Part shown: one piece after another, positions 2,183 to 16,917 of the stretch
How positions within the stretch are numbered: position 1 is the stretch's first letter
Layout of the letters: each line of letters opens with the position of its first letter
Source of the DNA: a virus
Direction: 5' to 3' (one strand)
Length of the DNA: 26,704 bases
Virus record (IMG/VR): IMGVR_UViG_3300004461_000265
Location: 1-26,704 of that record
Made by a program: the position numbers and the translations under genes
Notes under the pieces: generated by a model
What the model saw: the letters and a program-made list of their open reading frames with translations, nothing else
Database searches by the model: none
Told to the model about the DNA's origin: nothing

Positions 2183-2189
2183 AAGATAA

Positions 2190-2211: not shown

Positions 2212-2218
2212 ATCTCCA

Positions 2219-3172: not shown

Positions 3173-3188
3173 AATAATCTCTCAAAGG

Positions 3189-3950
3189 TTAGCTTTTTAC
3201 GCGACCTTCCTGATACGCTCTCATGATCTCATCAGACATCGATTGATAGCGTTGCGGGTTGGTTCGCATTAGTTCAATAATGTCGCTTCGTCTATAGATC
3301 TTTCTGCTTGGTGCTTCTGAACTTCCATTAGCACCACCCGTTGAAGCTGCGTTCAAAGTTTGTTTACGCTCTTTGCGCTCAACATCTACAGCCTGTTGCG
3401 CAACGTCTTGAGTTGATTTCCAAGAAGAAAACAATTCATCTGCTGCGTCATAGTCGTACTTGTTGTTTGCTCGCTCGTATAACTCTGAACGGATCTTGCT
3501 GCCGACTACCCACTGCTGAAAGTTGGCGTCCATAGCAATCTCTTTAATGTCAGGATGCTTCTGCTGTAAAGCCGAAAGCGTCTGACTTTGTTTCATTTGA
3601 TTGCCCAATTGCTCCAACTGTTTAATGGTTGGATGGTTTGCAATTTTGCTATCAACAGCTTTGTCGGGTTCGGCAAAGAAATCTATCTCTTCAGCCTGTT
3701 CCGGTTCGTTGACTTTGCTTTGATTAAGAATGAAATCGTCTACAACTTTCCTTAGCTGACCTACTTCCTGTCCTTGCTGACCGATGCGGGACTCTGCCTC
3801 TTGGTGCATCTTGATCAACTCAGCAGGAGTTTTCCCCCTGTAATGCTCGGGAGTGTCATCTACGGCTACCTCTTCAGTATTTTCCGAGACCGTTTCCTGT
3901 TGTACTTCTTCATCTACCTCGTTCGTCACTTCGTCAATAAGTTGTGCCAC
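3189..3950 (-). CDS. Scaffold-like capsid assembly protein
   Basis: A 253-residue, highly charged protein starting at a GTG (base 3950) with AGGAG eight bases upstream. Residues 1-40 are very acidic (EVDEEVQQE). The middle (about 55-175) is Gln/Glu-rich and predicted helical. Residues 195-215 are low complexity, and the C-terminus is basic (RKIYRRSDI ... YQEGRVKS). An acidic, helical body with a basic C-terminal helix, immediately upstream of capsid, is the classic profile of podoviral scaffolds. These guide procapsid assembly and bind coat subunits through the C-terminal helix. Sequence identity to known scaffolds is weak in this class, so the call rests on layout and composition. Confidence 0.7.
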   Translation of the reverse strand: MAQLIDEVTNEVDEEVQQETVSENTEEVAVDDTPEHYRGKTPAELIKMHQEAESRIGQQGQEVGQLRKVVDDFILNQSKVNEPEQAEEIDFFAEPDKAVDSKIANHPTIKQLEQLGNQMKQSQTLSALQQKHPDIKEIAMDANFQQWVVGSKIRSELYERANNKYDYDAADELFSSWKSTQDVAQQAVDVERKERKQTLNAASTGGANGSSEAPSRKIYRRSDIIELMRTNPQRYQSMSDEIMRAYQEGRVKS

Positions 3951-3999
3951 TATTAAACTCCTATGGAGACAAGACCAATTCTAAGCTACCCCGAAGGAC

Positions 4000-4245
4000 T
4001 TATGATTCGGCTACCTTGCGTTCGTGTTTAATCTTCGCCTGTCTATCCTTAGCCCATTTCATAGTAGCTCCCGGATAAGAACCGGAGATGGGGTCGAGTA
4101 CCGACTTAACAGGTGAGATCATCTTACTACTAGCACCGCCACACTCAGGACAGTCACGCGTATAACCCTCAACAACCTTATCGCGGTTAACCATTGCCTC
4201 ATGGACATGGCCTTTCGCGCATTGGAAATCAAAGATTATCAACAT
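4000..4245 (-). CDS. Small zinc-ribbon protein, FmdB-like
   Basis: About 81 residues. The N-terminus MLIIFDFQCAKGH with C9 and H13, followed by CPEC (C32, C35), matches the layout of FmdB-type putative regulatory zinc ribbons: a short beta strand, a first ligand pair, and a second CxxC about 20 residues later. The second ligand is His in a CxxxH spacing rather than the usual Cys. The C-terminal half is Lys/Arg-rich. The likely start is ATG at 4245; a GTG one codon earlier is possible. It overlaps the end of the upstream gene, which suggests translational coupling. Its role in the phage is unknown. Confidence 0.65.
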   Translation of the reverse strand: MLIIFDFQCAKGHVHEAMVNRDKVVEGYTRDCPECGGASSKMISPVKSVLDPISGSYPGATMKWAKDRQAKIKHERKVAES

Positions 4246-4471
4246 CACTGCTACCCTCTCGTAAGCGATCCACTGTAGATTCTAAGTTAAGTATGTAGGC
4301 CAAAATGTTTAACTGGCCTTTACGAAAGTTAAGATCATTCTCATCTTTCGTATACTCAACACAATTAATGTGAGCAGCGTTAGTGGTTAGCTCCTCAACT
4401 AAATCTTTCCACCCTCGCGTTAAAAACATATCCGCGAGGTTGTCGTAATACTGTTCTGTTTCTTTATCCAT
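4229..4471 (-). CDS. Small acidic protein of unknown function
   Basis: 80 residues, beginning MDKETEQYYDNLADMF. It is mostly helical by composition, with one Cys and an acidic C-terminus (SSDVDNL). The start ATG overlaps the stop of the small coiled-coil ORF upstream, and its 3' end overlaps the zinc-ribbon gene. It is therefore part of a tightly coupled set of small genes between portal and scaffold. This position in podoviruses often holds head-completion or assembly-related proteins, but nothing in this sequence identifies one. Confidence 0.6.
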   Translation of the reverse strand: MDKETEQYYDNLADMFLTRGWKDLVEELTTNAAHINCVEYTKDENDLNFRKGQLNILAYILNLESTVDRLREGSSDVDNL

Positions 4472-4613
4472 TCTTCTTAGCCTTAACCTTAGTTTGTAGC
4501 TCGTGAAGAAGAATAGCGTGTTGCTTTTCTACGGACTCTAGACGCTTGTTTAGTCTCTCTAGCACAGCGTTAACCTGCGTAACTACGTCCTCGAGTTCTC
4601 GTTTGGTAATCAT
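4464..4613 (-). CDS. 49-aa coiled-coil protein after portal
   Basis: This short ORF translates as MITKRELEDVVTQVNAVLER followed by further heptad-like residues and a Lys-rich tail ending KKNG. Its ATG shares its A with the portal stop (TAATG), and its stop overlaps the ATG of the next gene. Both overlaps are typical of coupled phage genes. Spacing of Leu/Val (LEDVVTQVNAVLERLNKRLESVEK) indicates a parallel or antiparallel coiled coil of about 35 residues. Function unknown; comparable tiny coiled-coil proteins near portal genes occur in other podoviruses. Confidence 0.65.
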   Translation of the reverse strand: MITKRELEDVVTQVNAVLERLNKRLESVEKQHAILLHELQTKVKAKKNG

Positions 4614-6550
4614 TAAGATAAAGCCTTTGCTGCATCAAGGTTCAGTCTCTTCTCTTTCAGCGCAGCGTCAGCAACTTTTAGTCGGCGTTCAAACTCTTTG
4701 TCGTCCGCATTACCTGCCGCAAGGTTAGATGTCACAGCTTTAATCTGATCAATCTCTAGCTCAACAGGAATCGCTTTAGTTTCTGCTGCGATCTTCGCAG
4801 CTCTTGCTTGAGACTCAGCGCCTTGTCCGTTCAGTGCGTTAGTCTGCGACTGTTGGAACTCCATCTGTGCTTGCTGCATAGCTTGTTGTGCTTGCTGCTG
4901 CTCAGGTGAAGGCTGTCCTGCTTCTTGTAGAGTTTGTATTAACTGCTCGCGGTTACTCAGGTTCATGTTGTCTATGATTGATTGAATCAACGCAGGATAA
5001 AGCGGAGACTCAGGAGACATTGTTTGTAGAAGCTGAACCAACTGTGTAACCTCGTATTCTCTAGCAATGATGCCAAGAGACGAGGTGACTTCAAACTTAT
5101 AATCCGATACCGGATATAACTCAGGTTCAAACTGCATGTATCTGTGTGCAGCTTTAGTCACAAACGGTATTAAGAAAGACTCTTGGAAGTTAATTAACGT
5201 GCGTTTATGGCGCTTAATCACCGCGCCAAGGGACATGGAAATGCCCGCTGCGGTAGCTTCGCCATTGATTGAGCCGCCAACTCCAACAGAGTCTATTGCG
5301 CCTGTGGCAGTCTGCACCATTCGCTGTAGCTCACCTGCTTGCGCGAAGGTAATCTGAGATACTTGACCAAAGTTAAATGGCTGCAAGACTTCAGAAGGAT
5401 TACCATTGGTTAGAATAATTTTTCCCGGTCTTACTTCAGGTTTTGCCCCGCGAGGTAGGCGTGTTGCGTCCATCGCCATCATTGGGTGGACTGTTAGAGC
5501 CAGTGCATCGATCCTAGCCCTTAATTCTGCGTCCAATGCCTTCTGTGAGTTGTAACCTTTCTCACATACACCACGACCCCAGAACCTAGAGGGTACGATG
5601 TCCCAAGGGAACGCCACAACAGGGCGGTCTTGCATCATGTACGGGTTCTTCTCCGCTTTCAGCAGAGTACCACCGTTAGCTATTACAACAATCGCCTCAA
5701 CATAGAAGTCAGTCTCTTCTTCGGCGTCTGTAAGCTGTTCAACCTCTTCGTATTCATCGTCATTCTCAAGTAAATAGCGGGGAACAAGTCCGTAATACTT
5801 GGTCAAACGAGTCTTATCGGTAGGCTGCGTGGTAAGTTCGTGGTCAGGATCTAGGTCTGTGTCAGGATACGCGAAGTTAAAGGGTACATTCTTGTATACA
5901 CCCTTCTCCTGTAGCTGTTCTATGGCGTGTGGTGAGACGAATTCATCAATCACTACACCCAATGCGCTGTCTACATCCACAGCAACAGGGTCAATCAAGA
6001 AGTTTTGAGGTAAAACAGGTCGTAATTTAACGACTGTGCGGTCTGAGATGTTCACACCTACCGCTTGTAGCTGCCCATCCATGATAGGTTCGGTTGCAGG
6101 CTTCATCTCTTTTATTTCTTCTAGGACAATTTCGGCTATACCTGTACCAAAGACGGCTGCGTTGATTAAACACTCAGCCACGCCCTTGCGAATCTTGTTA
6201 GCTTTAAAGTCTTCCAATAGTTTTTCGCGAAGGTAGGCTACGTCTTGAGTCTCTTGGTCAGAGATGTCGTCCTTCATATCAAAGAACCTGCCACGACCAA
6301 ACGTAGCTTCTTCAATCTCTGCGACTGATGACTCTACGGCTTGTTGTAGGGCAGGAGATATGATCTGTGATCGTTCGGAATCGCGGTTACGGTCTTCGCT
6401 AGAGTAGATACCACGCCAAAGACGGTAGTATTCATCAAACTTTGCTTCGTAATTAGTCTCGTAATGGTCGCGCCAATCGCGGCACTTCTCCATTATCCAA
6501 GACTCAAGAGTCTCTTCTATGCCAAACTGATCTTCGTTGGATTCGAGCAT
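4613..6550 (-). CDS. Portal (head-tail connector) protein
   Basis: 645 residues, in the size range of podoviral portals. The portal forms the dodecameric channel through which TerL pumps DNA. The N-terminal part contains YYRLWRGIYSSEDR, then SQIISPALQQAVESSVAEIEE, which resembles the clip-proximal start of podovirus portals. The middle carries the conserved-looking WDIVPSRFWGRGVCEKGYN segment (about residues 315-335) and PRGAKPEVRPGKI. The C-terminal region is Gln-rich and coiled (about residues 550-580), then a charged helix ending DAAKALS, a barrel-like extension common in this group. It lies one base past the terminase stop and directly upstream of the small assembly genes, as expected. 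Confidence 0.88.
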   Translation of the reverse strand: MLESNEDQFGIEETLESWIMEKCRDWRDHYETNYEAKFDEYYRLWRGIYSSEDRNRDSERSQIISPALQQAVESSVAEIEEATFGRGRFFDMKDDISDQETQDVAYLREKLLEDFKANKIRKGVAECLINAAVFGTGIAEIVLEEIKEMKPATEPIMDGQLQAVGVNISDRTVVKLRPVLPQNFLIDPVAVDVDSALGVVIDEFVSPHAIEQLQEKGVYKNVPFNFAYPDTDLDPDHELTTQPTDKTRLTKYYGLVPRYLLENDDEYEEVEQLTDAEEETDFYVEAIVVIANGGTLLKAEKNPYMMQDRPVVAFPWDIVPSRFWGRGVCEKGYNSQKALDAELRARIDALALTVHPMMAMDATRLPRGAKPEVRPGKIILTNGNPSEVLQPFNFGQVSQITFAQAGELQRMVQTATGAIDSVGVGGSINGEATAAGISMSLGAVIKRHKRTLINFQESFLIPFVTKAAHRYMQFEPELYPVSDYKFEVTSSLGIIAREYEVTQLVQLLQTMSPESPLYPALIQSIIDNMNLSNREQLIQTLQEAGQPSPEQQQAQQAMQQAQMEFQQSQTNALNGQGAESQARAAKIAAETKAIPVELEIDQIKAVTSNLAAGNADDKEFERRLKVADAALKEKRLNLDAAKALS

Positions 6551-6551
6551 C

Positions 6552-7802
6552 TTAATATCCCGCTACTGAGTCGATTACGTCAAACTCATCTATTTCAAAG
6601 TCGTATGAGTAAGACACCTTAGCCAATTGATCTATATAGGCTAAAGCGTCTACCATGTCATCGTGGGTTAAGGCGTCAGGGAATTGGAAGATTTCATCCA
6701 TGAATTGGATGTTCCACTCACCTTTGTTGAGGTTGCAGATTCCGTTCTCGAATCTACCCTGTAACGCCCACATTACCCTGTCAGTTTTCTTTTTGTTCCC
6801 GTGAGTAAGTTCCTCAACGCGAAAGAAGTTCTGGTACTTTTTCATCAGGTCAGTCAGTGGCGACATCACAGCCTGTCGGGCAATTCCTTTCTCAATGCCG
6901 ACTGATATGGGCTGATAGTCTCTAACTATCTGGAATATCTTCTCCGCAGTGGCGTTTAATTCCCACCTACCGCAGATAATGTCCTTGACCCACCATCCAT
7001 ATTCGCCCACTTTTACCACGGCTATAGCGGTATTGTCAAGTTTTTTGTTTTTAGATTTGGCTTTTCCTACCTCTTCAAAGCCCGCGAGGTCAATGGCAAC
7101 GTAGTAATCTCCGGTATCAGGCTCTTCGTCATCGAACCTAACCCACTCTTCTTTAAACATCTCAGAGCCACGCGCTTCAAAAGACGCCATGAACTCTTGG
7201 CGAAACGCGAAGGAAGACATGGATTTCTTGGCTGCATCAATCTCTTCTTTGTCTAGTAAGTCGTTGTCGTAACTGGTGTAGTGCCATGCTTTATAAGTGG
7301 GGTCTTCGCCTAAACTGGCTTGCTTGTAGAGTTCATAGAAATGATTTCTACCCATTGGTGTCCCGATAAATAAGGCATCGCCCTTCAAGTCTGTCAACGC
7401 AGGTCGTAATATTAGCTCCCATACATCGGGCTTCATGTCTGCGTATTCATCCAAGACAAGAAACTTGAGACTTACGCCGCGCATTGTCTCAGGTCTGTCA
7501 GCGCCCTTCAAGCTGATAGTTGTGCCATTGATAAGTCTTACCTGCATGTTGTTGACATGCGAGTTCTCGATGACGGGCTGACCTATCTCCAAAAGGAGAT
7601 TCCACATAATATCCCTTGCTTGGCCTTGCGTGGGGGCTACATAGAAGACTTGACCCTTGTCTGACCTTAAAGCGTTGACTATCAAAAGATAAGCCGCAAG
7701 ACGAGACTTGCCCGTCCTGCGACCCGCAGCAACTACTTTGAAACGCGTAGGGTCGTTCCAAACTTCTTTCTGCCACTCAAGGAGACTAATGTCTAGGTTC
7801 AT
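6552..7802 (-). CDS. terL: Terminase large subunit
   Basis: 416 residues. The packaging ATPase is recognised by Walker A AGRRTGKS (26-33), Walker B LKFLVLDE (112-119, acidic pair D118/E119) and the coupling motif LFIGTP (144-149). The C-terminal RNase H-fold nuclease begins at YYVAIDLAG with the likely metal-binding D238. It continues through a GIEKG segment with a second acidic residue and ends with THDDMVDALAY, the third acidic cluster seen in TerL nucleases. It cuts concatemers and translocates DNA into the portal. ATG 7802 overlaps the stop of the 46-aa ORF. The length is complete for a short TerL. Confidence 0.95.
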   Translation of the reverse strand: MNLDISLLEWQKEVWNDPTRFKVVAAGRRTGKSRLAAYLLIVNALRSDKGQVFYVAPTQGQARDIMWNLLLEIGQPVIENSHVNNMQVRLINGTTISLKGADRPETMRGVSLKFLVLDEYADMKPDVWELILRPALTDLKGDALFIGTPMGRNHFYELYKQASLGEDPTYKAWHYTSYDNDLLDKEEIDAAKKSMSSFAFRQEFMASFEARGSEMFKEEWVRFDDEEPDTGDYYVAIDLAGFEEVGKAKSKNKKLDNTAIAVVKVGEYGWWVKDIICGRWELNATAEKIFQIVRDYQPISVGIEKGIARQAVMSPLTDLMKKYQNFFRVEELTHGNKKKTDRVMWALQGRFENGICNLNKGEWNIQFMDEIFQFPDALTHDDMVDALAYIDQLAKVSYSYDFEIDEFDVIDSVAGY

Positions 7803-7939
7803 TTTTTCTTCGCGGTCTTCTTAGCTTGCTTGAATGCTTTAGCTGTAGGCGCGCCTTTACTGCCGACCTTTCTCATGGTCTCGCCGCTACCTGCTGCAAT
7901 CCGCTTCTTCTTTGCGTTGATATTGCTGTAGAGACCCAT
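7799..7939 (-). CDS. 46-aa Lys-rich protein before TerL
   Basis: A small ORF starting MGLYSNINAKKKRIAAGSGE and ending in a poly-Lys tail (KKTAKKK). It carries about a third Lys/Arg. Its TGA overlaps the TerL ATG, so it is probably translationally coupled to TerL. Similar short basic proteins with GLY(S/A)NI(N/H)AK starts occur near the terminase in many aquatic podoviruses, from memory. A role in DNA binding or the virion is guesswork. Confidence 0.65.
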   Translation of the reverse strand: MGLYSNINAKKKRIAAGSGETMRKVGSKGAPTAKAFKQAKKTAKKK

Positions 7940-7940
7940 G

Positions 7941-8045
7941 TTACTTCCTCTTGGGTGGGGCTTTCTTCTTAACAGCCTTAGCTTTTTTAGCTGCTGCCAT
8001 TCCCGCAGGAGTGTAGGGGTATTTCTTTCCGTTTACATTAGGCAT
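7941..8045 (-). CDS. 34-aa basic protein
   Basis: This tiny ORF begins MPNVNGKKYPYTPAGMAAAK and ends KAPPKRK. I recognise the 'GKKYPYTPxGM' pattern as a recurrent small phage protein, often beside late genes, without known function. It is preceded by a GAGG ribosome site and followed within two bases by the 46-aa basic ORF. Both are short enough to be missed by automatic callers. Confidence 0.6.
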   Translation of the reverse strand: MPNVNGKKYPYTPAGMAAAKKAKAVKKKAPPKRK

Positions 8046-8055
8046 CGTATAATCC

Positions 8056-8376
8056 TCATTTAGCCTTCATTGATTGAAGTTTTGTTCCTTTTTTGTACCC
8101 GCCTTTGGCGTAAGTTAGTGCTTCTTTTTTGCCTTTCATTGGCAAGTAATTGTTATTCTTTAGATTATACTCCATAGCTTTAGAGCTGTCTTTGAATTGA
8201 TACAGCTCTCCGCTAGGAAGCTGCACAATGGTGGGAAATACAAACCAGTTACCATTTTCATCTACCTCTGCCGCCATGCGGTGTGTAGAGATTGAGCCGT
8301 CTTTGTTTTTGATAAATGGGTAGCTATCAGGGTCTCTGATACGAGCTAGAAACTCAGGCTCTGCTTTGTCAGGCAT
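8056..8376 (-). CDS. Conserved phage protein of unknown function
   Basis: 106 residues. The core reads YPFIKNKDGSISTHRMAAEV, then NWFVFPTIVQLPSGELYQF, and the protein ends AYAKGGYKKGTKL in general style. The same segment occurs in phage proteins and as a domain inside larger phage structural proteins, from memory, with no assigned activity. It overlaps the upstream lysozyme by 8 bases. No membrane segment or catalytic motif is visible. A virion-associated role is possible. Confidence 0.65.
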   Translation of the reverse strand: MPDKAEPEFLARIRDPDSYPFIKNKDGSISTHRMAAEVDENGNWFVFPTIVQLPSGELYQFKDSSKAMEYNLKNNNYLPMKGKKEALTYAKGGYKKGTKLQSMKAK

Positions 8377-8782
8377 TGTATTCTCCGGTTCGTATCATGT
8401 TAGTAATAGTTATCGCTCGTTGACCCACTTGCTCTGCCCAGTTAGAGTCTAAGAACTCTACTGAGGCTGCTTCGTAGTTAGCAAGAGACATTTCTCTGAG
8501 AGCGTCTCTAAAGCCTCGAAGACGGCTAATACCAAGGTTGAAGCACATATCCATCATAGCGTCTTGACGCACCAAGTCCAAGTGGGTAAACCACTCAAAC
8601 GCTTTGGTTAGCTCCTGCTCGCAGCGGCGGATATCATTCGCGAGGAGATAGTAGACTTCATCCTCAGATAATCCCATAGAGTCTAGGTTACGCCCAACTC
8701 CTATGGTCATATCTCCCGCCGTGCATTCGTAAGGCTTAAGCCGCAAGCCCTCGTGCTTAATGAGCAGGTCTTCAATCCTCAT
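8369..8782 (-). CDS. T4-type lysozyme (endolysin), Glu-Cys-Thr active site
   Basis: 137 residues with the glycoside hydrolase family 24 fold signature. HEGLRLKPYEC places catalytic Glu at 11, and TAGDMTIGVGRNLD places Thr at 26, exactly the T4 lysozyme numbering. The residue at the T4 Asp20 position is Cys20, so this is an E-C-T triad. This variant occurs in other phage lysozymes, and the T4 D20C mutant is known to stay active. The later FNLGISRLRGF and W-AEQVGQRAITITNMIRTG segments match the C-terminal lobe. It cleaves peptidoglycan at lysis. There is no signal peptide or SAR helix, so it would need a holin, and none is obvious in the late block. The start overlaps the upstream gene by 11 bases. 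Confidence 0.92.
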   Translation of the reverse strand: MRIEDLLIKHEGLRLKPYECTAGDMTIGVGRNLDSMGLSEDEVYYLLANDIRRCEQELTKAFEWFTHLDLVRQDAMMDMCFNLGISRLRGFRDALREMSLANYEAASVEFLDSNWAEQVGQRAITITNMIRTGEYNA

Positions 8783-9140
8783 GGAACTCTCCTTCTATCA
8801 CTTCGGGTTCTACGATCGTATCAGTGACCCCTGAGATGGTTATATTGACCGTAGGCTTACCCCCGAGCTTGTCCTTATCAAACGAGCTGATCGGTAAGAT
8901 GCGATCTACTATGAGCTTCCACGCCGCAGATTGGTTCTTGTGGTCGTCATCTTGAGCAGCTCGGAAGATAGACTCTATCACAGCATTGGTATCCCTCCTC
9001 GCGAGAAATCGCTGCTTCATCTCTGCCATAGCCGAATGGTCACCCTTGGGTCTACCAACAGGACGGTTCTTAGGTTTCTCTATCTCCGACTTACGGGGAC
9101 GGCCACGCTTTCTCTTTACTGGTACATTGTCTTCAGCCAC
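8772..9140 (-). CDS. AT-hook DNA-binding protein, possible small terminase
   Basis: 122 residues. Two AT-hook-like motifs are visible near the N-terminus: KRKRGRPRK (about 9-17) and RPVGRPKG (about 26-33). These would bind the minor groove of AT-rich DNA. A helical middle (AMAEMKQRFLARRDTNAVIE ... AAWKLIVDRILP) follows, then an acidic C-terminal tail (EPEVIEGEFHED). As the first gene of the leftward late operon, a few genes upstream of TerL, and given this architecture, it could be the small terminase subunit that recognises phage DNA. It could equally be a late regulator. No canonical TerS helix-turn-helix is clear. Confidence 0.5.
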   Translation of the reverse strand: MAEDNVPVKRKRGRPRKSEIEKPKNRPVGRPKGDHSAMAEMKQRFLARRDTNAVIESIFRAAQDDDHKNQSAAWKLIVDRILPISSFDKDKLGGKPTVNITISGVTDTIVEPEVIEGEFHED

Positions 9141-9175
9141 AACATAGAAGCTCTTTTAAGATTAATATTTGGCGT

Positions 9176-9205
9176 ATTAAACCATTAATTGGTCAATTTC
9201 GCCAA
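9176..9205 (-). promoter_or_regulatory. Candidate leftward sigma70-like late promoter
   Basis: Read leftward, TTGGCG (9205-9200) and TTTAAT (9181-9176) are separated by 18 bases, a plausible -35/-10 pair. This would start RNA near 9169, about 30 bases before the first late gene (ATG at 9140). It is the only reasonable site I see ahead of the leftward block, but a match of this quality can arise by chance. Confidence 0.35.
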
Positions 9206-9243
9206 CCCCTGTGTTCATGCGGGTTTTAGGGGTGGTTTTTTTT
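9205..9243 (+). terminator. Rho-independent terminator, rightward
   Basis: ACCCCT (9205-9210) pairs with AGGGGT (9228-9233), followed by GG and a run of eight T (9236-9243), read rightward. The loop is long (17 bases). The T run and G/C stem are convincing only in the rightward direction, where no gene lies upstream. It would stop antisense RNA coming out of the leftward late block before it reaches the early promoter. It also overlaps the -35 of the candidate leftward promoter. Confidence 0.45.
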
Positions 9244-9352
9244 GCTTCTTTTTTTTAATTTGGCCTCACGCAAATTTGAGGGGCAACTACAATAAAAAGC
9301 CACGCGCAATCGCCCCTCCCCGTCCATGATTCGAACCCCGTCTGTTTATACG

Positions 9353-9404
9353 CGCGCGCACGCGAGCTGTTAACGCGCGCACGCGAGGCTTATCTAGACG
9401 CGAG
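9353..9404. repeat. GC-rich direct repeat, 14 bp at 21-bp spacing
   Basis: CGCGCGCACGCGAG occurs exactly at 9353-9366 and 9374-9387, start to start 21 bp. A shorter third copy, ACGCGAG, lies at 9398-9404. The alternating purine-pyrimidine tract from 9350 to 9364 could adopt Z-form DNA. The 21-bp spacing (two helical turns) matches the second repeat family at 9511-9552, which suggests a stacked protein-binding array such as an origin or operator. Confidence 0.55.
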
Positions 9405-9439
9405 CAATCCCAAGCGGTGAGAGTGAGGGGAGGGAAGGC

Positions 9440-9460
9440 AGCCAATAGCCAATAGCCAAT
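9440..9460. repeat. Three tandem AGCCAAT heptamers
   Basis: AGCCAAT is repeated three times without a gap between 9440 and 9460 in the control region. No gene overlaps it. It may be a protein-binding array or a slippage product; nothing else in the sequence decides. Confidence 0.6.
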
Positions 9461-9490
9461 CGCATACCCTATACACACGATTCTCAAACC

Positions 9491-9552
9491 GTTACCGGTA
9501 ACACATCTACGGTAACACGGTAACACTTTACGGTAACACAGTAACACTCTCA
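9491..9552. repeat. GGTAACAC iterons with 12-bp palindrome
   Basis: GGTAACAC occurs at 9497, 9511, 9519 and 9532, and the one-base variant AGTAACAC at 9540. The pairs at 9511/9519 and 9532/9540 make two copies of a 21-bp unit. The first copy is part of a perfect 12-bp palindrome, GTTACCGGTAAC (9491-9502). A second palindrome, GTATGCATAC, lies at 9558-9567. The array ends about 60 bp before the putative rightward promoter. It may be an iteron origin, a repressor operator or upstream activator sites. Confidence 0.65.
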
Positions 9553-9612
9553 ACACTGTATGCATACACAGTACATTGGCTACACACCGCGTAAACACTG
9601 GACTTTGAAAAG

Positions 9613-9629
9613 TTGGCACGGGCAATGCA
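9613..9629 (+). promoter_or_regulatory. Sigma54-like (-24/-12) promoter for the early operon
   Basis: TTGGCACG (9613-9620), four bases, then ATGCA (9625-9629). The invariant GG (9615-9616) and GC (9627-9628) have the exact 10-bp separation needed by sigma54. Only one base departs from the usual TTGCW at -12. The transcript would begin near 9640 and give a leader of about 38 bases before the first early ATG at 9678. A sigma70 reading is also possible (TTGGCA, 17 bases, TACACG), but its -10 is poor. Confidence 0.45.
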
Positions 9630-9677
9630 TTGTATTACACGACAACGCAATACACACACAACACAAAGGGGAATCAC

Positions 9678-9845
9678 ATGCTATACGAATACGATGACGG
9701 TAGATCAAGCTTCCAATGCTACTTGCTAGCAGAACATATCGAAGACGATTCGCGCTCATATATTGAATTACTGCCCGAATATGTAGAACGTGGCGAGCGA
9801 TCAAAGTACTGGATCAATAACGAATACTTAAGCGAAGGGGAATAA
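9678..9845 (+). CDS. Early protein of unknown function, 55 aa
   Basis: This is the first gene of the rightward operon. The ATG at 9678 is preceded by AAGGGG at good spacing, so I prefer it to upstream in-frame non-ATG starts that would read through the promoter. The protein (MLYEYDDGRSSFQCYLLAEH...) is acidic and aromatic-rich and ends NNEYLSEGE. No motif is recognised. Early leading genes of this size are often host-takeover or anti-defence factors, but there is no direct sign of that here. Confidence 0.65.
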   Translation: MLYEYDDGRSSFQCYLLAEHIEDDSRSYIELLPEYVERGERSKYWINNEYLSEGE

Positions 9846-9846
9846 C

Positions 9847-10116
9847 ATGCACAACAAAGCGCATTTAGACTACAAAACAGAAGACGCATTAGGCTATGAC
9901 CTGTATCGCGTGCCTAATGACGTATACGGCAATCCTCGCTACGTTATCCACTGGCTAGCATTCGCGAATGAATACGACCAAGCAAAGAAGATAGCGAACT
10001 CGCTAGGGTTCAGGGTATATCGCGGCAAAGACTTTGGCGGCGGTTTTGTGTGCCAGTCCTACAACGTAGAAAACACAGCGGAAAACATAATCGCAGCCAG
10101 ATCAAAAGGAAAATAA
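9847..10116 (+). CDS. Conserved phage early protein, 89 aa
   Basis: Begins MHNKAHLDYKTEDALGYDLY. The segment YRVPNDVYGNPRYVIHWLAF and the later YRGKDFGGGFVCQSYN form a pattern I recall from hypothetical proteins of several aquatic phages, without function. The probable fold is alpha/beta, with a single domain. It follows the previous stop by one base, after a GGGG ribosome site, and is clearly co-transcribed. Confidence 0.7.
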   Translation: MHNKAHLDYKTEDALGYDLYRVPNDVYGNPRYVIHWLAFANEYDQAKKIANSLGFRVYRGKDFGGGFVCQSYNVENTAENIIAARSKGK

Positions 10117-10117
10117 C

Positions 10118-10474
10118 ATGTATAAAATCGAAATTAATCACAGAGAATCGGAATTTATTAGCGCATACCTTGAGGCGGTAGACTTCACGGAACTAGGCGA
10201 AGAAGGACAACCGCCAATCGGAGCAGATATTGACGAGGATTTTATGCGCGAATGCATAATCGACTGTCTCGCATTCTATAGCCAAGTCGAATGCGTTTTA
10301 GCGCCTAAGAATATTGCTCAAGCGGGGCATGATTTTTGGCTTACCCGTAACGGGCATGGCGTAGGGTTCTGGGATAGGCCAGAAATATACGGGGCAAATC
10401 GCGTGCAAAGGTTTACTGAGATTGCCGAATCGTTTGGCGAGTCTTATGCGACATATGACGAGATAGGGGGATAA
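10118..10474 (+). CDS. Conserved phage early protein, 118 aa
   Basis: The C-terminal half holds QAGHDFWLTRNGHGVGFWDR, a signature shared with many uncharacterised phage early proteins. The N-terminal part is acidic and ends with CIIDCLAFYSQVE (two Cys). The HDFW and HGVGFWD residues suggest a metal- or ligand-binding site, but no activity is known to me. It starts one base after the previous stop, in the same operon. Confidence 0.7.
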   Translation: MYKIEINHRESEFISAYLEAVDFTELGEEGQPPIGADIDEDFMRECIIDCLAFYSQVECVLAPKNIAQAGHDFWLTRNGHGVGFWDRPEIYGANRVQRFTEIAESFGESYATYDEIGG

Positions 10475-10475
10475 C

Positions 10476-10637
10476 ATGACGCACGAAACAGCACTAACCA
10501 AAGCGCTAGTCCTATGCGTGACAGCGCCAGAACATAGGCTCGGGGATGCGCTTAAATTAGCGCACGAGATCGCATCAATGTGTACGCCCGCCGAAGTGGC
10601 GAGAGCAAAAGAAAACGCCAAGGAGGTGATGGCATGA
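10476..10637 (+). CDS. 53-aa protein of unknown function
   Basis: This small ORF (MTHETALTKALVLCVTAPEH...) is predicted helical and ends KENAKEVMA. Its TGA overlaps the ATG of the following membrane protein. It carries within its own 3' end the AAGGAGGTGAT ribosome site of that gene, the strongest Shine-Dalgarno I noticed in the window. The tight packing supports it being translated. Confidence 0.55.
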   Translation: MTHETALTKALVLCVTAPEHRLGDALKLAHEIASMCTPAEVARAKENAKEVMA

Positions 10638-10861
10638 GAAATAATCGCAGAAATATAGAGGCAGAAAATTTTTGGCTGAAATGTATACTTGTGGGGGCGG
10701 CTTTGCTAATCTCGTTCACCCTTGGTGCTTTGCTTGAACCGAGCGAGGTGCTAGAGGCAAGGGAGTCGAACCTATATGCCGAAATGGTTTGCTTGGGCAT
10801 TGAAACCGATATGGCCTATGGGTGGCCAAATTATAAGGGGTTAACGGTAGACTGCAATTAA
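10634..10861 (+). CDS. Small membrane protein, one transmembrane helix
   Basis: 75 residues starting at ATG 10634 after an excellent AAGGAGG site. A basic N-terminus (MRNNRRNIEAEN) is followed by a hydrophobic helix at about residues 16-35 (LKCILVGAALLISFTLGALL). The C-terminal part is probably periplasmic, with two Cys (C53 and C74) that could form a disulphide. It could be an early inner-membrane protein, such as a superinfection or lysis modulator, or a holin-like protein. Nothing identifies it further. Confidence 0.65.
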   Translation: MRNNRRNIEAENFWLKCILVGAALLISFTLGALLEPSEVLEARESNLYAEMVCLGIETDMAYGWPNYKGLTVDCN

Positions 10862-10864
10862 AGT

Positions 10865-10882
10865 GTCCCCCCGAAGGGGGAC
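10865..10882 (+). terminator. GTCCCCC hairpin with CGAA loop
   Basis: GTCCCCC pairs perfectly with GGGGGAC around CGAA, three bases after the membrane-protein stop. No T run follows, so it is more likely an mRNA-stabilising or processing hairpin, or an attenuator, than a full terminator. It separates the first early genes from the replication genes. Confidence 0.5.
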
Positions 10883-10907
10883 TGATCACCACACAAGGGG
10901 GAGGAGG

Positions 10908-10973
10908 ATGCATTGCGATCTAGCGCAGGTTATCCGCTCTCTCCCTGTAACGCAAGGGGGAAATTATGGCTGA
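10908..10973 (+). CDS. Possible 21-aa leader peptide before the replication genes
   Basis: An ATG directly after GGAGGAGG opens a 21-codon frame (MHCDLAQVIRSL...). It closes with a TGA that overlaps the start of the primase-type zinc-ribbon gene at 10966. The ribosome-site spacing is very short. It could serve translational coupling or be meaningless. Confidence 0.2.
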   Translation: MHCDLAQVIRSLPVTQGGNYG

Positions 10974-11367
10974 TTTCGATTTAGTCTGTAGCAAATTAGA
11001 GCAGGTTAGGCGCAAGGGTAACAAGGCTATGGCCTTATGCCCCGCGCACGATGACAAGTCGCACTCGCTCAGTATTCTATACCGCGAGGCCGATGATCGG
11101 GTGCTACTACACTGCTTTGCGCAGGACTGTAGCGCAGAGTCCATTCTAAAGGCCGTGGGGCTTGCGTGGCGGGACATCTACCCTAACGATGGGTCACCCT
11201 ATACACCAAGGGTCAGTAAGCATACACGCGAGGAGGTGAAGTCTGCGGAGTGGCTTCTAGAATTAGTGCCAGTATGGTCTCGCGAGGGGGTGGCATTTAC
11301 TGAGAAGGATCGGGCAGATATCTACAATGCTCAGCGGATAGTTAACAGCGCGAGGGGGATCAAATGA
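10966..11367 (+). CDS. Standalone primase-type (CHC2-like) zinc-ribbon protein
   Basis: 133 residues. The N-terminal half has C25-P-A-H28, a beta-strand segment (HSLSILYR), then LLHC50FAQDC55SAESILKAVGL. This matches the zinc ribbon at the head of DnaG and TOPRIM primases, which recognises the template. The second pair is spaced CxxxxC rather than the usual CxxC. No TOPRIM polymerase domain follows: the rest (about 70-133) is a short charged helical tail. It overlaps the next replication gene by four bases (ATGA). It probably acts with the winged-helix protein and the ATPase downstream in replication initiation. Confidence 0.75.
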   Translation: MADFDLVCSKLEQVRRKGNKAMALCPAHDDKSHSLSILYREADDRVLLHCFAQDCSAESILKAVGLAWRDIYPNDGSPYTPRVSKHTREEVKSAEWLLELVPVWSREGVAFTEKDRADIYNAQRIVNSARGIK

Positions 11368-11978
11368 ACGGATGGATTAGATTAGACAGGGCGATACAGG
11401 ACAATTTCCTGTGGCAAGAGCCTGAAGCTTTAAAACTATGGCTGTATCTACTGATGGCTGCGTCCTTGACGGATAAAGCGACAGCGTTTAACGGGCAAAT
11501 GCTCAACATAAAGCGGGGTCAATTGGTCTTCGGTTTGAATGCCGCGAGTGCCAGATTAAACATCTCAATACGGCGTTTGAGAAAGTACCTAAATTGGTTT
11601 GAAGCTGATGACATGATTGACAAGCAAGTGACAAACAAATTCTCAATCATTTCAATAACTAACTACGCTCAGTACCAAGATTCGGGCAAGCAACCGTCAA
11701 GCAAGAGTCAAGCAACTGCCACGCAAACGACAACAACTATACAAGTAACAAGTAACAAAGAACAATCTATACCCCCGACAGTTGAGGAAGTGAGGGCGTA
11801 TTGTGACTCGCGGGGCAACGGCATTGATCCCGAAATGTTCATCGCGTTCTATGAGGCGCGCGGGTGGAAGATCGGCAAAGACAGAATGAAGTCTTGGAAG
11901 GCTTGTGTGGTTACATGGGAGAAACGTAGGCAAGAGCAGACCCCTACTCGCGAACAGTCATGGGGGGTGGAGCTATGA
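11364..11978 (+). CDS. Winged-helix replication initiation protein
   Basis: 204 residues. Residues 1-105 (GWIRLDRAIQDNFLWQEPEA ... LNIKRGQLVFGLNAASARLN ... ISITNYAQYQ) match the N-terminal winged helix common to phage replication proteins of the lambda O and DnaD-like type. A Thr/Ser/Gln linker follows at about 110-135. A C-terminal helical domain begins PPTVEEVRAYCDSRGNGIDP and includes FYEARGWKIGKDRMKSWKAC, which is widespread in phage replisome organisers. It probably binds the origin and recruits the helicase encoded next. Its stop overlaps the helicase start (ATGA). Confidence 0.75.
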   Translation: MNGWIRLDRAIQDNFLWQEPEALKLWLYLLMAASLTDKATAFNGQMLNIKRGQLVFGLNAASARLNISIRRLRKYLNWFEADDMIDKQVTNKFSIISITNYAQYQDSGKQPSSKSQATATQTTTTIQVTSNKEQSIPPTVEEVRAYCDSRGNGIDPEMFIAFYEARGWKIGKDRMKSWKACVVTWEKRRQEQTPTREQSWGVEL

Positions 11979-12940
11979 AGCTGCCCCAAGGACTAGAGCT
12001 AGACCAATACCTTGAGCTTACTGGCTTGATGGAAGCATCGCAAATTCACTCGGCGGGCAGGTGGCATGATGAGGTGGTCGAACGATCCAAAGGCCAAAAG
12101 ATATGGGGTGCTAAGCTACCGTGGCCTAAAACGCATGACACTTTTCGTTTAAGACAGGGGGAACTAACCATATTTGGTGGAGCTAATGCCTCCAAGAAAT
12201 CCCTTATCTGTGGCGAGATAATCCTTGGGCTACTCAAAGACTCTAAGGTCTGCCTCGCGTCCCTTGAAATGAAGCCGAGCGAATCCCTGTACCGGATGCT
12301 AATGCAAGCGGCAGGGGCGAAGGATGGTACGCCCGCAGAATCCTTCATTTCTGAATTTTCAGCGTTCGTTGACCATAACCTAGTCATATTTGACCAGTTA
12401 GACACAGTGAAGCCGGAGCGAGTGCTATCCATCATCCACTACTGCGTTAAGGAATTGGCATGCAAGTATGTCTTCATTGATTCCCTCGCGAAATGTGGCA
12501 CGGGCTTTCAGGATTATGTAGCCGAGACAGAGTTCGTGAACAAGCTACAGCACTGCGCCAAGACGCTAGACGTTGGGATTATATTAGTGGCTCATATCAG
12601 GAAACCCCCACAGGCAGATGACAATTGGATACCTGACAAGTATTCCATTCGCGGGGCAGGTACGCTGACCGACATGGCTGATAATGTGTTGTTAACTGCT
12701 AGCAACGCGAAGAGAAAGCAGCTAAAGGAATTAGCCAAGATGACCGAGTTAGATGAGAAGCAGCAGGAATATTTATCTAAACATAAAGACCAAAAGCTGA
12801 TTGTAGCGAAGCAAAGACACAGCGGCGGATGGGAAGGCACGTACAATTTTTACTTTCACGACAACAGCTTACAGCTAACCGAGCAGGAGGATCGGCCTCG
12901 CAGGTTTTATTTCGACACAATTGTTGACAAGGATATTTAA
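11975..12940 (+). CDS. RecA/DnaB-fold replication ATPase with degenerate P-loop
   Basis: 321 residues from ATG 11975, chosen over an in-frame ATG 15 bases upstream because it overlaps the preceding stop and has GGTGGAG before it. The family is the phage AAA/RecA-like helicase with a long N-terminal arm. LPWPKTHDTFRLRQGELTIF precedes the P-loop. SLEMKPSESLYRMLMQAAG, Walker B YVFIDS (165-170), the sensor VAHIRKP and RGAGTLTDMADNVLL are well conserved. The P-loop reads GANASKKS (69-76), where relatives have GVNGHGKS: both central glycines are lost, Lys75 and Ser76 remain. The role is probably fork helicase or its loader. Confidence 0.8.
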   Translation: MKLPQGLELDQYLELTGLMEASQIHSAGRWHDEVVERSKGQKIWGAKLPWPKTHDTFRLRQGELTIFGGANASKKSLICGEIILGLLKDSKVCLASLEMKPSESLYRMLMQAAGAKDGTPAESFISEFSAFVDHNLVIFDQLDTVKPERVLSIIHYCVKELACKYVFIDSLAKCGTGFQDYVAETEFVNKLQHCAKTLDVGIILVAHIRKPPQADDNWIPDKYSIRGAGTLTDMADNVLLTASNAKRKQLKELAKMTELDEKQQEYLSKHKDQKLIVAKQRHSGGWEGTYNFYFHDNSLQLTEQEDRPRRFYFDTIVDKDI

Positions 12941-12978
12941 TCTATATTACGATGACTACACATTCTGAGGAGGATGAC

Positions 12979-13395
12979 ATGAAATACATCAAAGAGTGGC
13001 TCGCCGAGCCGACAACCGCAACACAATATCTTATTGACGGTGACATCGATTGGGACGTAGTCCCACTAGCTGACATCGATCAGATGATCTTCTCTGTACT
13101 GCATGACGCAGATGCGAACGAGTATCTGTGTGACATCATGCTCTACCATGCAGACCCTGAAGTCCTGCGCGGCTGCATCCATAAGTTAATTACGAACAAA
13201 GCTGACACGCTTACTTACTCTGTGATCTTTAGGAGTGAGATGCGCGAGGCTGTCCTGTCTTTCATTCGGGATGTCGCCACTCGCGAGATTGGCATAGCCG
13301 AGACTGCATTAGCTGTGTACGGTCACGAGTATGCGACCACTGAGCAGGTCATGCACAGCATTCGCGAAGACATGCACGAACAAAAATACTTTTAG
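12979..13395 (+). CDS. Unknown acidic early protein, 138 aa
   Basis: The ATG at 12979 follows GAGGAGGATGAC, a strong ribosome site; an in-frame ATG 27 bases earlier lacks one. The protein (MKYIKEWLAEPTTATQYLID...) is acidic and mostly helical. It contains repeated hydrophobic patterns such as DADANEYLCDIMLYH that suggest a small helical-repeat fold. No catalytic motif is seen. It sits between the replication ATPase and the recombination genes, so a replication-associated role is reasonable but unproven. Confidence 0.6.
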   Translation: MKYIKEWLAEPTTATQYLIDGDIDWDVVPLADIDQMIFSVLHDADANEYLCDIMLYHADPEVLRGCIHKLITNKADTLTYSVIFRSEMREAVLSFIRDVATREIGIAETALAVYGHEYATTEQVMHSIREDMHEQKYF

Positions 13396-13404
13396 GGGGA
13401 TACC

Positions 13405-13623
13405 ATGGCAGATTACACATTAATTTTAGACACTGAGAAAGCGCGGATAATATTCTCATCATTACTCAACACGCAAGTAGAGTGCAGAATGATCGAAGAG
13501 GATAAAGATGTCAGAGCCAAGTACCCCACACTGGTGGGCATGGCGCAGCTAACACACGGTGTGATTACTGATGTATTAGACACAATGTTCGATCAAGAGG
13601 CGGATGAAGATGAAACAATCTGA
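13405..13623 (+). CDS. Unknown small acidic protein, 72 aa
   Basis: MADYTLILDTEKARIIFSSL opens a small, mainly helical protein with an acidic end (DQEADEDETI). A GGGG site lies upstream of the ATG. It overlaps the ERF gene start, indicating coupled translation. No known family is recognised. Confidence 0.6.
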   Translation: MADYTLILDTEKARIIFSSLLNTQVECRMIEEDKDVRAKYPTLVGMAQLTHGVITDVLDTMFDQEADEDETI

Positions 13624-14053
13624 ATCAATAGCAAACCTAGCAGCCGCGATGGCTGCGGCACAGGGCGAGATGGGCGCGGCAGTCAAAGGCTCGTCCAATC
13701 CATTCTTTAAGTCTAGCTACGCTGATCTTGGGGCTGTCATACAAGCAGTCAAAGCCCCATTCGCGATGCATGGCCTGAGCTATGTGCAATTCCCTGTTAA
13801 TGGGCAGGGTGGTATTGGAGTATCTACACGCTTAATGCATTCATCCGGTGAGTGGCTAGAGCAGGAGTTTTTAATCCCTCTAGGCAAGTTAGATGCGCAC
13901 GGTGCGGGTTCAGCTATCACTTACGCTAGACGGTACGCTTTGCAGTCTATCGCAGGTATCCCTGCCGAGGATGACGATGGTAATGCTGCATCTGCTAAGC
14001 CTAAGCACCCATCACATCCCGCAGCGAAACAGTCTGCGCCGGATTTCTTTTAA
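13610..14053 (+). CDS. erf: ERF-family single-strand annealing recombinase
   Basis: 147 residues. The ERF family signature is clear: SNPFFKSSYADLGAVIQAVK (about residues 26-45), HGLSYVQFP, then GSAITYARRYALQSIAGI (about 99-116) and a DDDGN stretch. ERF proteins, such as P22 Erf, form rings on ssDNA and anneal complementary strands. With the exonuclease two genes downstream it makes a Red/Rec-like pair. I prefer ATG 13610 to 13604 for better spacing from AGAGG; the difference is two residues. The C-terminal tail is short compared with P22 Erf. The stop overlaps the next ATG. Confidence 0.85.
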   Translation: MKQSESIANLAAAMAAAQGEMGAAVKGSSNPFFKSSYADLGAVIQAVKAPFAMHGLSYVQFPVNGQGGIGVSTRLMHSSGEWLEQEFLIPLGKLDAHGAGSAITYARRYALQSIAGIPAEDDDGNAASAKPKHPSHPAAKQSAPDFF

Positions 14054-14217
14054 TGAGAAGGGATGTACGATGCGGGACTTGCAGTCAATGGGTAGAGCCA
14101 AATTACTACCCGTTCTGCAAGCCTTGCAAGGATCTAATAGACCTAACTAACAAATTGTGGAGGACACATGAGAATAATAGATTGCGAACAGGGCAGTCAG
14201 GAATGGCTGTCAGCTAG
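14053..14217 (+). CDS. 54-aa zinc-ribbon ORF overlapping the exonuclease start
   Basis: The TAATG at the end of ERF opens a frame beginning MRRDVRCGTCSQWVEPNYYP and continuing FCKPCKDLIDL. C7, C10, C22 and C25 form a clear CxxC-x11-CxxC zinc ribbon. The ORF runs 50 bases into the exonuclease gene in another frame. The regular Cys pairs argue for a real protein, possibly a nucleic-acid-binding accessory. Alternatively, a 26-aa frame from ATG 14070 uses the same space and lacks the Cys pattern. Confidence 0.5.
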   Translation: MRRDVRCGTCSQWVEPNYYPFCKPCKDLIDLTNKLWRTHENNRLRTGQSGMAVS

Positions 14218-14767
14218 GCTAGGTGTCCCGTCTGCCTCACAGTTTTCTAAGATAGTTACTGGCAAAGGCGGTAAGTCTACGCAGGTAGAGGCTTATATCA
14301 ATCAGCTAGTCGCTGAAGAGCTAACAGGCGAGACTACGTTGGTCTACGTCAACGAACACATGAAGCGTGGCACTGAGCTAGAGCCAGATGCGCGTGAATT
14401 GTACGAAGCCCTGACAGGTCAAACTGTTCAGGAATTGGGGTTCTGTCTGCACGACACCGTGAACGCAGGTTGTTCGCCAGACGGATTAGTGGGGGAGGAT
14501 GGCGGGCTAGAAATCAAATGCCCTGCCCCTGCTACGCATGTGGAGTGGGTGAAGGCAGGAGTATTACCTTCTAAGCACTTGCAGCAGATCATGGGATGCC
14601 TGTGGGTCACAGGCCGTCAGTGGTGGGACTTTATGTCCTATCACCAGACCATGAAACCTTTGATCGTTCGTGTTGAACGCGATGAGGAATACATAGCAGC
14701 ATTGGCAGAACATGTAACCAATGCAGCATTAAAAATCAAACAAGATGTTAACCAATACTTTCAGTAG
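14168..14767 (+). CDS. YqaJ/lambda-Exo-type recombination exonuclease
   Basis: 199 residues. QGSQEWLSARLGVPSASQF opens the YqaJ-type viral recombinase fold. The catalytic PD-(D/E)XK site is visible as GTELEPDARELYE (about 68-80), SPDG with D105, and E115-I-K117 followed by CPAP. The HLQQIMGCLWVTGR helix (138-150) is the usual Gln-containing closing motif. It degrades one strand from dsDNA ends and hands ssDNA to the ERF annealase. The AGGACAC site precedes ATG 14168. Complete length for the family. Confidence 0.9.
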   Translation: MRIIDCEQGSQEWLSARLGVPSASQFSKIVTGKGGKSTQVEAYINQLVAEELTGETTLVYVNEHMKRGTELEPDARELYEALTGQTVQELGFCLHDTVNAGCSPDGLVGEDGGLEIKCPAPATHVEWVKAGVLPSKHLQQIMGCLWVTGRQWWDFMSYHQTMKPLIVRVERDEEYIAALAEHVTNAALKIKQDVNQYFQ

Positions 14768-14775
14768 GGGGTGTT

Positions 14776-15021
14776 ATGAAGGGAAGGAGGAGCTTAAACA
14801 ATGCGCTTATAAGCATCGACATAAATTACGAGTGTGGAGAGGGTGAGGTTTATTTTGCTAATACATTCTTATCATTAGACCCCCTGTTAAAAGCAGACAT
14901 TTTGCAGGATTTAATGCATGACATGCAAGACCAATACCTTGTCTCTAGGATACAGATGCGCAAGGCTTACACTAAAATCGAAGATAGTTTTAACCCAAAA
15001 GAGGAGCAAGACAATGAGTGA
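14776..15021 (+). CDS. Unknown small early protein, 81 aa
   Basis: Starts MKGRRSLNNALISIDINYEC after a GGGGGTGTT ribosome site, eight bases after the exonuclease stop. It has a beta-rich first half (GEGEVYFANTFLSLDPL) and a helical second half ending in NPKEEQDNE. No known motif. Its stop overlaps the start of the SSB-like gene by eight bases, suggesting joint translation. Confidence 0.6.
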   Translation: MKGRRSLNNALISIDINYECGEGEVYFANTFLSLDPLLKADILQDLMHDMQDQYLVSRIQMRKAYTKIEDSFNPKEEQDNE

Positions 15022-15253
15022 TTACGATGATACAAACCGTGGCGCACTGTTCAAGAATGAGCGCAAAGAGATTGAGACGCACGCTGACTACAATGGCACG
15101 ATCAATGTAGGCGGTCAGGAATACTGGCTTAACTCGTGGCTCAAGGAATCTAAGAACGGAAAGAAGTACATGAGCCTGTCGGTTAAGCCGAAGGATGTTC
15201 AGTCTGCACCTGCCCCTAAGGTGGAGATTGCTTCAGAAGACATGCCCTTTTAA
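15014..15253 (+). CDS. SSB-like protein with acidic C-terminal tip
   Basis: 79 residues from ATG 15014. The middle (YNGTINVGGQEYWLNSWLKE then GKKYMSLSVKPKD) looks like part of an OB-type beta barrel, as in ssDNA-binding proteins. The last residues are SEDMPF. The acidic run followed by Pro-Phe resembles the DDDIPF tip with which bacterial SSB recruits repair and replication enzymes. The protein is far shorter than bacterial SSB, so it may be a compact phage version or only a tip-mimic. Location beside ERF and the exonuclease supports a ssDNA role. A longer frame upstream lies in the neighbouring gene and is not likely used. Confidence 0.6.
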   Translation: MSDYDDTNRGALFKNERKEIETHADYNGTINVGGQEYWLNSWLKESKNGKKYMSLSVKPKDVQSAPAPKVEIASEDMPF

Positions 15254-15259
15254 TTTATC

Positions 15260-15275
15260 GGGGGCGCAAGCCCCC
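15260..15275 (+). terminator. GGGGGC hairpin with GCAA tetraloop
   Basis: GGGGGC pairs with GCCCCC around a GNRA-type GCAA loop, followed by TTATCCTT, directly after the SSB-like gene. It is a partial terminator or attenuator ahead of the HTH gene. Its arm and tail, GCCCCCTTATC, match the hairpin behind the capsid gene on the other strand. Confidence 0.6.
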
Positions 15276-15292
15276 TTATCCTTGGAGGAAGT

Positions 15293-15514
15293 ATGCACAT
15301 AGGCCAAGCGATTAGATGCGCACATGCCATTAAGAATATCAAGCACATCCGAGTGGCGCAGCAGATAGGAGTGAGTGCAGCTAACTACTCGCACTCACTT
15401 ACCCAAAAGGGTATGCAGGTTAAACGCTACAAAGAAATCTGTGACGCGCTTGGCATGAGCATGGATGATGTATTTAAAATAGGAGAAGAATATGCTGACG
15501 GCGACTCAGAGTAA
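15293..15514 (+). CDS. Small HTH (Cro/C1-type) regulator
   Basis: 73 residues. A helix-turn-helix occupies about residues 17-45: IRVAQQIGVSAANYSHSLTQ and onward. EICDALGMSMDDVF (about 48-61) is the usual fourth helix of the XRE fold. The short acidic tail (GEEYADGDSE) has no dimerisation or peptidase domain, so it is Cro-like rather than a CI repressor. It may bind the palindromes or repeats of the control region; that is inference. A good AGGA site lies before ATG 15293, after the hairpin, so its expression may be lower than that of the genes upstream. Confidence 0.75.
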   Translation: MHIGQAIRCAHAIKNIKHIRVAQQIGVSAANYSHSLTQKGMQVKRYKEICDALGMSMDDVFKIGEEYADGDSE

Positions 15515-15668
15515 CCAACAAGTCAGAGATAGATTAGAGAAAGACTTGGAGTTGTTCTTCAGCAAGGGCGGGGAAGTTAGACACTTCCCTCCCTGCACCT
15601 ACTCCAATCAAGTGCTAACAGAGAAGCAGCGGTTTGATGCTCGTTTCGGTCAGAGGGGGAAGAAATGA
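15492..15668 (+). CDS. 58-aa protein of unknown function
   Basis: This ORF begins MLTATQSNQQVRDRLEKDLE and ends RFGQRGKK. It overlaps the HTH gene by 23 bases and the NinB-like gene by four (ATGA). AGGAGAAG lies five bases before its ATG, a good ribosome site. The N-terminal half is helical; the middle holds FPPCTYSNQ. No family recognised. Confidence 0.55.
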   Translation: MLTATQSNQQVRDRLEKDLELFFSKGGEVRHFPPCTYSNQVLTEKQRFDARFGQRGKK

Positions 15669-16087: not shown

Positions 16088-16284
16088 TTATCTTCGATGA
16101 CTTTGCGCGAGCCTTAGAGGAAGCGGAGTGGTGCGCGAATGACGAAAGAGTTTTGTATTATGTATTCCTGTTCAATGACAAATTCGTGGTACGCAAGAAG
16201 CACGGCGGCGCACCGAAGCCCAAACGAAAACACATAGAAGTAGGCTTTCATCACAGGAAAGCAGGGAGAAAACCAGATGCTTGA
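16084..16284 (+). CDS. 66-aa protein of unknown function
   Basis: Starts at GTG 16084, overlapping the NinB-like stop by four bases. An acidic aromatic half (MIIFDDFARALEEAEW ... YYVFLFNDKF) is followed by a basic tail (GGAPKPKRKHIEVG ... KAGRKPDA). The overlaps on both sides support translation. No family recognised. Confidence 0.5.
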   Translation: MIIFDDFARALEEAEWCANDERVLYYVFLFNDKFVVRKKHGGAPKPKRKHIEVGFHHRKAGRKPDA

Positions 16285-16669: not shown

Positions 16670-16691
16670 ACGCGCTGAACGAGAAAGCATT

Positions 16692-16892: not shown

Positions 16893-16917
16893 GCGCACAA
16901 AAACTTAAAGGAAAGTT

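Follow-up and report, generated by a model that had tools for sequence, protein, structure and literature searches.

CbrB is a sigma54 activator described from Pseudomonas, where it recognizes the site TGTTAC-N12-14-GTAACA-N15-19-GTAACA (PMC8871633, PMC6296734). The subsites share a face of the helix, the promoter is of the GG-N10-GC type, and IHF lies between the subsites and the promoter (PMC6296734, PMC8871633). The CbrAB system has been held to be unique to the Pseudomonadaceae (PMC8871633). Two further systems connect phages with the host regulators considered here. In the temperate Bacillus phage GIL01, early promoter P1 is under the control of host LexA, which acts with the phage protein gp7 (PMC4551915, PMC6182141). 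RpoN, SOS and phage are also connected in the activation of RtcR/RpoN during SOS linked to prophage Gifsy-1 (PMC9879122).

Here we describe a phage control region in which positions 9491-9629 are likely (probability about 0.74) to form a sigma54 early promoter that imitates host CbrB promoters, served by RpoN and a CbrB-family activator and gated by LexA. This reading is inferred from sequence alone. Like the Pseudomonas CbrB promoters of crcZ, crcY and PP2810 (PMC6296734, PMC8871633), the phage site has GTAACA half-sites about two helical turns apart, and it shares with them the layout of a GG-N10-GC promoter with an IHF-like element between. It differs in driving replication genes and in having more half-sites, arranged as direct repeats; in the sequence analyzed here a LexA box is added and the IHF element is degenerate. 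The likeness to GIL01 lies in phage early transcription under host LexA, but the present promoter is of the sigma54 type, and the phage proteins that were checked included no integrase. In the Gifsy-1 case the sigma54 promoter is the host's; the one described here would belong to the phage itself and drive its early genes. We infer that known promoter types are combined in a new variant, and in the open literature searched we found neither this setting nor any phage early promoter under host sigma54 and a named enhancer-binding protein.

Gene Layout and Features of the Control Region

The window, by which we mean the whole stretch of DNA analyzed, is a 26,704-base record of an uncultivated virus described as a marine phage. 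The genes for terminase, portal and capsid point leftward, starting at about 9140. The early block points rightward, begins at 9678 and encodes a primase-like protein, a DnaD-like helicase loader and a replicative helicase. ERF, YqaJ, NinG and a cell-wall hydrolase are also encoded. The features considered below are as follows.

9141-9677: divergent control region, splitting the leftward structural genes from the rightward early genes
9491..9547, + strand: putative upstream activator array (GTTAC at 9491; GTAAC at 9498, 9512, 9520, 9533 and 9541)
9554..9573, + strand: LexA/SOS box CACTGTATGCATACACAGTA, assigned as very likely on its CTG-N10-CAG frame, matrix score and conservation
9583..9594, + strand: position of the IHF-like element, AAGCCATTGAAT in relatives L020, L136 and L188 and degenerate in the window
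9613..9629, + strand: very likely sigma54 -24/-12 promoter TTGGCACGGGCAATGCA, assigned as the best matrix match and on its invariance in 34 control regions
about 9640, + strand: predicted transcription start, 12 bases past the -12 C, placed by promoter geometry only and unmapped
9678..9845, + strand: early gene 1 (55 amino acids), with the ribosome-binding sequence AAGGGGA just before it
10966..12940, + strand: early replication genes for a primase-like zinc-ribbon protein, a DnaD-like helicase loader and a replicative helicase (PHROGs, Pfam)

The 55-residue product of the first early gene has no family match in PHROGs or Pfam and its function is unknown. The second early gene (9847-10116) has a Pfam match, to the family of TreK, a terminal-repeat protein of staphylococcal phage. 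No known RNA element or tRNA was found. Within the control region, a late-side block at 9247-9285, CTTTTTTTTAATTTGGCCTCACGCAAATTTGAGGGGCAACTA, is strongly conserved in all relatives and could be a late promoter or a packaging signal. In the late half, CGCGCGCACGCGAG also occurs twice without any mismatch, at 9353-9387, with 21 bp between the copies' positions. Searches with the terminase, capsid, portal and helicase, and with proteins of other phages of the same layout, recovered only distant isolated relatives. A terminase search of 369 gammaproteobacterial genomes found a single genome with a 45% match, and the promoter was absent from the stretch of it that was examined.

A Conserved Sigma54-type Promoter

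The sequence-only reading had proposed a sigma54-like motif with exact GG-N10-GC spacing facing the early genes, and this claim held. Positions 9613-9629 of the + strand read TTGGCACG-GGCA-ATGCA, with GG at 9615-9616, GC at 9627-9628 and exactly 10 bases between them, which meets the criterion of GG-N10-GC within a TGGCAC-N5-TTGC-like sequence. Scored with a matrix of E. coli sigma54 sites (PMC4591121), which themselves score 10.9-19.1, this site reaches 16.1, the highest value at any position on either strand of the window (runner-up 15.1). A sigma70 promoter was rejected, there being zero + strand matches in 8700-10200.

Conservation was assessed across 34 distinct control regions that share the array, gathered via terminase relatives and pattern searches. 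TGG-N10-GCA(A/T)TG is present in 34/34. The T-GG-CA and GC-A positions are invariant, and the bases in the middle of the spacer drop to 0.3-1 bit. The check proposed by the sequence-only reading, conservation of GG/GC and the repeats in related phages, was thus passed. The distance of the promoter from the end of the first array unit is 109 bases in 30 regions, 108 in one and 153 in three. We infer that conservation in two blocks with a variable spacer is the trace expected of a -24/-12 promoter. Because the downstream sequences with the first genes differ among these phages, the conservation cannot be put down to coding sequence; a chance match is rejected by the conservation and by the controls. 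We regard the promoter call as strong and very likely correct, with RpoN dependence remaining an inference.

In L015, L018 and L172, the array and -24 lie about 44 bases further apart, and the added sequence includes a second, partial TTGGCA beside the real one. The added length fits action via looping but may represent one event. Many more distant terminase relatives have no such promoter at all. In five distant relatives (L066, L067, L068, L073 and L076) tandem repeats near TTGGCATGAGTCTTGCA mimic perfect sigma54 sites; these very strong matches were excluded as iterated tandem repeats. Since strong sigma54-like matches can be repeats, as in L066-L068, the sigma54 consensus alone is insufficient.

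A rival explanation is that the array consists of replication-origin iterons and that the -24/-12 match is coincidental. In its favor, the region divides divergent gene blocks and coincides with the turning point of the GC skew, and some distant relatives have true tandem repeats resembling sigma54 sites. Against it, there is only one promoter, whose two conserved blocks keep a fixed distance from the array, the same pairing is seen in bacterial CbrB promoters and in otherwise different phages (below), and the skew turn is accounted for by gene-strand bias. We consider this explanation very improbable.

The Upstream Half-site Array

The array is made of GTAACAC units, with pairs at a 21-bp period. 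One GTTAC and five GTAAC half-sites lie in 9491-9545, and at least four of the half-sites are followed by AC. Six half-sites thus fall within 70 bp; none of 2000 resampled versions of the region has more than four, and no other 70 bp of the window (1-9400 and 9701-26704) has more than three. There is no window-wide enrichment of GGTAACAC at one mismatch (17 found, 15.4 expected); what is unusual about the repeats is their clustering and not their number in the window.

The array is conserved together with the promoter in the 34 control regions. Most relatives have TGTTAC-N16-GTAACA-N15-GTAACA plus extra half-sites; the first subsite of the window is CGTTAC, and the first inverted half-site is missing from several relatives. 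The repeats claimed by the sequence-only reading were therefore confirmed, as six clustered and conserved half-sites. That reading had placed both the repeats and a palindrome about 90-145 bp before the start, which is about right for the half-sites (about -149 to -95 if +1 is near 9640); the palindrome is nearer, at about -86 to -67.

Association of the Half-site with CbrB-like Regulators

The core of the phage repeat, GTAACA, is the published CbrB half-site, so that the half-site criterion of TGTTAC / GTAACA is met. In a first search of gammaproteobacteria, two half-sites preceded a sigma54 site in six matches, against three for the control reading, which on its own is weak evidence. Two of the six matches lie upstream of the same DUF294 gene type, one of them adjoining a CbrB-like response regulator and kinase. 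At L243:6378-13565, a CbrA/CbrB-like pair without a crcZ context adjoins a PilZ gene and a DUF294 / sodium-solute symporter operon that has its own half-site array and sigma54 site.

Close relatives of the CbrB-like regulator, used as a query, were found in 33 of 340 gammaproteobacterial genomes. The name CbrB-like rests on similarity to the CbrB encoded beside a crcZ gene, NCBIfam having no CbrB model. The recognition helix LGISRKxLWERRQR is nearly invariant and is common to the CbrB beside the crcZ gene. A sigma54 site of more than 11 bits with at least three half-sites in the 165 bp upstream is present at 14 of the 33 CbrB-like loci; the same test found none at control gammaproteobacterial loci and none with reversed half-sites. 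At this strict threshold the other 19/33 CbrB gene loci lack such a promoter. At a looser threshold of 7 bits there are 20 sites in the real loci and at most one in each of ten resamplings, with the caveat that G+C-rich pentamers are then also frequent in the CbrB-like loci. CrcZ RNA was sought in 274 gammaproteobacterial genomes and gave four matches, one above the curated cut-off.

Given the 14/33 loci and the absence of control matches, we conclude that the GTAAC half-site is tied to CbrB-family promoters beyond Pseudomonas. This contradicts the restriction to Pseudomonadaceae stated in PMC8871633. The sequence-only reading had suggested a tie to a host enhancer-binding protein. The half-site match and the sigma54 sites beside CbrB-like genes support this tie, with the CbrB family as candidate. 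That the phage activator belongs to the host CbrB family is likely and well supported, but the support is indirect: there are no binding data and the host is unknown.

The IHF-like element bears on the same comparison. The YAA-N4-TTGATW-like criterion is not met in the window, but the element is present in the family members L020, L136, L188 and L033 and in many other phages, and a AAGTGNTTGATT-type element occurs at the same distance in other phages and in hosts. It lies 29-31 bp before the sigma54 site in 16 of 30 other phages, and of 16 bacterial promoters 9 have a similar element, at 27-30 bp.

Alternatively, the sigma54 promoter could be genuine and the array served by another host activator, or by a phage protein, with a GTAAC half-site. 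The half-site packing favors this: the window half-sites are direct repeats 8 and 13-14 bp apart, whereas bacterial CbrB promoters mostly have GTTAC-N5-GTAAC pairs. A search for a regular four-half-site array in bacterial genomes also gave 11 matches but no convincing regulatory site (a Pseudoalteromonas match was a repeat at the end of a transporter gene), and the phage encodes a small HTH protein at 15293-15514. On the other side, both the half-site and its distance from the promoter match CbrB promoters, as does the IHF-like element of other phages, and no sigma54-activator domain was found among the window proteins scanned with Pfam and PHROGs. We consider this alternative unlikely.

A Probable LexA Box between Array and Promoter

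The palindrome had been taken in the sequence-only reading as an activator-binding element. This part failed: the palindrome is very likely a LexA box. LexA recognizes the consensus CTG-N10-CAG (PMC2994835). The sequence CACTGTATGCATACACAGTA agrees with TACTGTATATATATACAGTA at 16 of 20 consensus positions and has an A/T-rich center; it is the best such site of the window and meets the gammaproteobacterial LexA criterion. The CTG-N10-CAG frame is kept in 33/34 relatives. A LexA matrix was derived from the boxes that precede lexA in CbrB-bearing genomes, recA-upstream boxes being few in a random gammaproteobacterial sample. With this matrix 9554-9573 scores 19.2, against 11.7 for the runner-up in the window. 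The host lexA boxes score 17.1-27.5, a range that includes the box variants tested from relatives (18.8-23.2). We regard the call as strong, although LexA binding and SOS derepression are inferred. The box sits between the last half-site and -24, a location that could conceivably let LexA hinder activator assembly or looping, the mechanism again being inferred.

The palindrome could instead be the operator of a phage Cro/C1-type repressor. The small protein encoded at 15293-15514 is indeed of the Cro/C1 HTH type (Pfam), and other phages have a different palindrome, TTAGACTAAGGTCTAA, at the same place. However, the tested variants stay in the range of host LexA boxes, and the phage L389, whose genes are quite different, has a LexA box at the same place. 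This explanation is therefore improbable, and we retain the assignment to LexA.

The Same Layout in Other Phages

The sequence-only reading had called sigma54 control of phage early genes rare. Our results differ, with similar promoters found in many uncultivated phages. Viral contigs were scanned twice for half-sites with a sigma54 site after them. The first scan returned 72 contigs, among them the window's own group, and the second 38. With reversed half-sites the second scan returned 9 contigs; at least three half-sites were present in 31 of the 38 contigs, and at least three reversed half-sites in 4 of the 9 controls. Some scan matches fall in coding sequence and are due to chance. Many others are recognizable promoters with an array, an IHF-like AAGTGNTTGATT-type element and TTGGCAC-N6-TGC.

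These phages differ widely in gene content. The portal class of the window recurs in several, and the genes of others include DNA polymerase, ribonucleotide reductase or a head-protease fusion. All four elements, including the LexA box, are present in L033, a relative with 84% terminase identity, and in L389, which encodes ribonucleotide reductase. In L358, L368, L372, L375, L376, L378, L309 and L363 the LexA box is replaced by TTAGACTAAGGTCTAA or variants of it. The operator between array and promoter may thus be exchangeable between phages, although the protein that binds TTAGACTAAGGTCTAA is unknown. In the distant relative L069, the control region upstream of the terminase has a cluster of the DnaA-box-like TTATCCACA.

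The elements themselves, their order, spacing and conservation, and their occurrence in bacteria and other phages are shown. A bolder reading, which on balance we slightly favor, is that a class of uncultivated aquatic phages uses CbrB-like sigma54 early promoters with an exchangeable repressor operator and gating by carbon and DNA damage.

Proposed Mechanism and Implications

In the proposed mechanism, host RNA polymerase with RpoN would bind -24/-12 as a closed complex, and a host CbrB-family response regulator would bind the GTAAC/GTTAC array about 70-120 bp upstream. The activator would loop to the promoter, probably helped by IHF in most such promoters, and its ATP hydrolysis would open the promoter, so that transcription of the replication block would start near 9640. 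Host LexA on the SOS box would repress the promoter until the SOS response removes it. The early genes would then be on under carbon limitation, with CbrB active, and at low LexA, two host stress signals being read. Binding, activation, repression and this physiological logic are all inferred. The host is unknown, the presence in it of RpoN, CbrB and a matching LexA is assumed, and no expression data stand behind the main reading.

Our results indicate that CbrAB-like systems extend outside the Pseudomonadaceae. If the main reading is true, the layout would flag phages of CbrB-carrying hosts and so help to predict the hosts of uncultivated phages. A two-component system with which the host senses nutrients would, along with SOS, be connected directly to phage replication, which would provide a testable link between marine carbon limitation and phage development.
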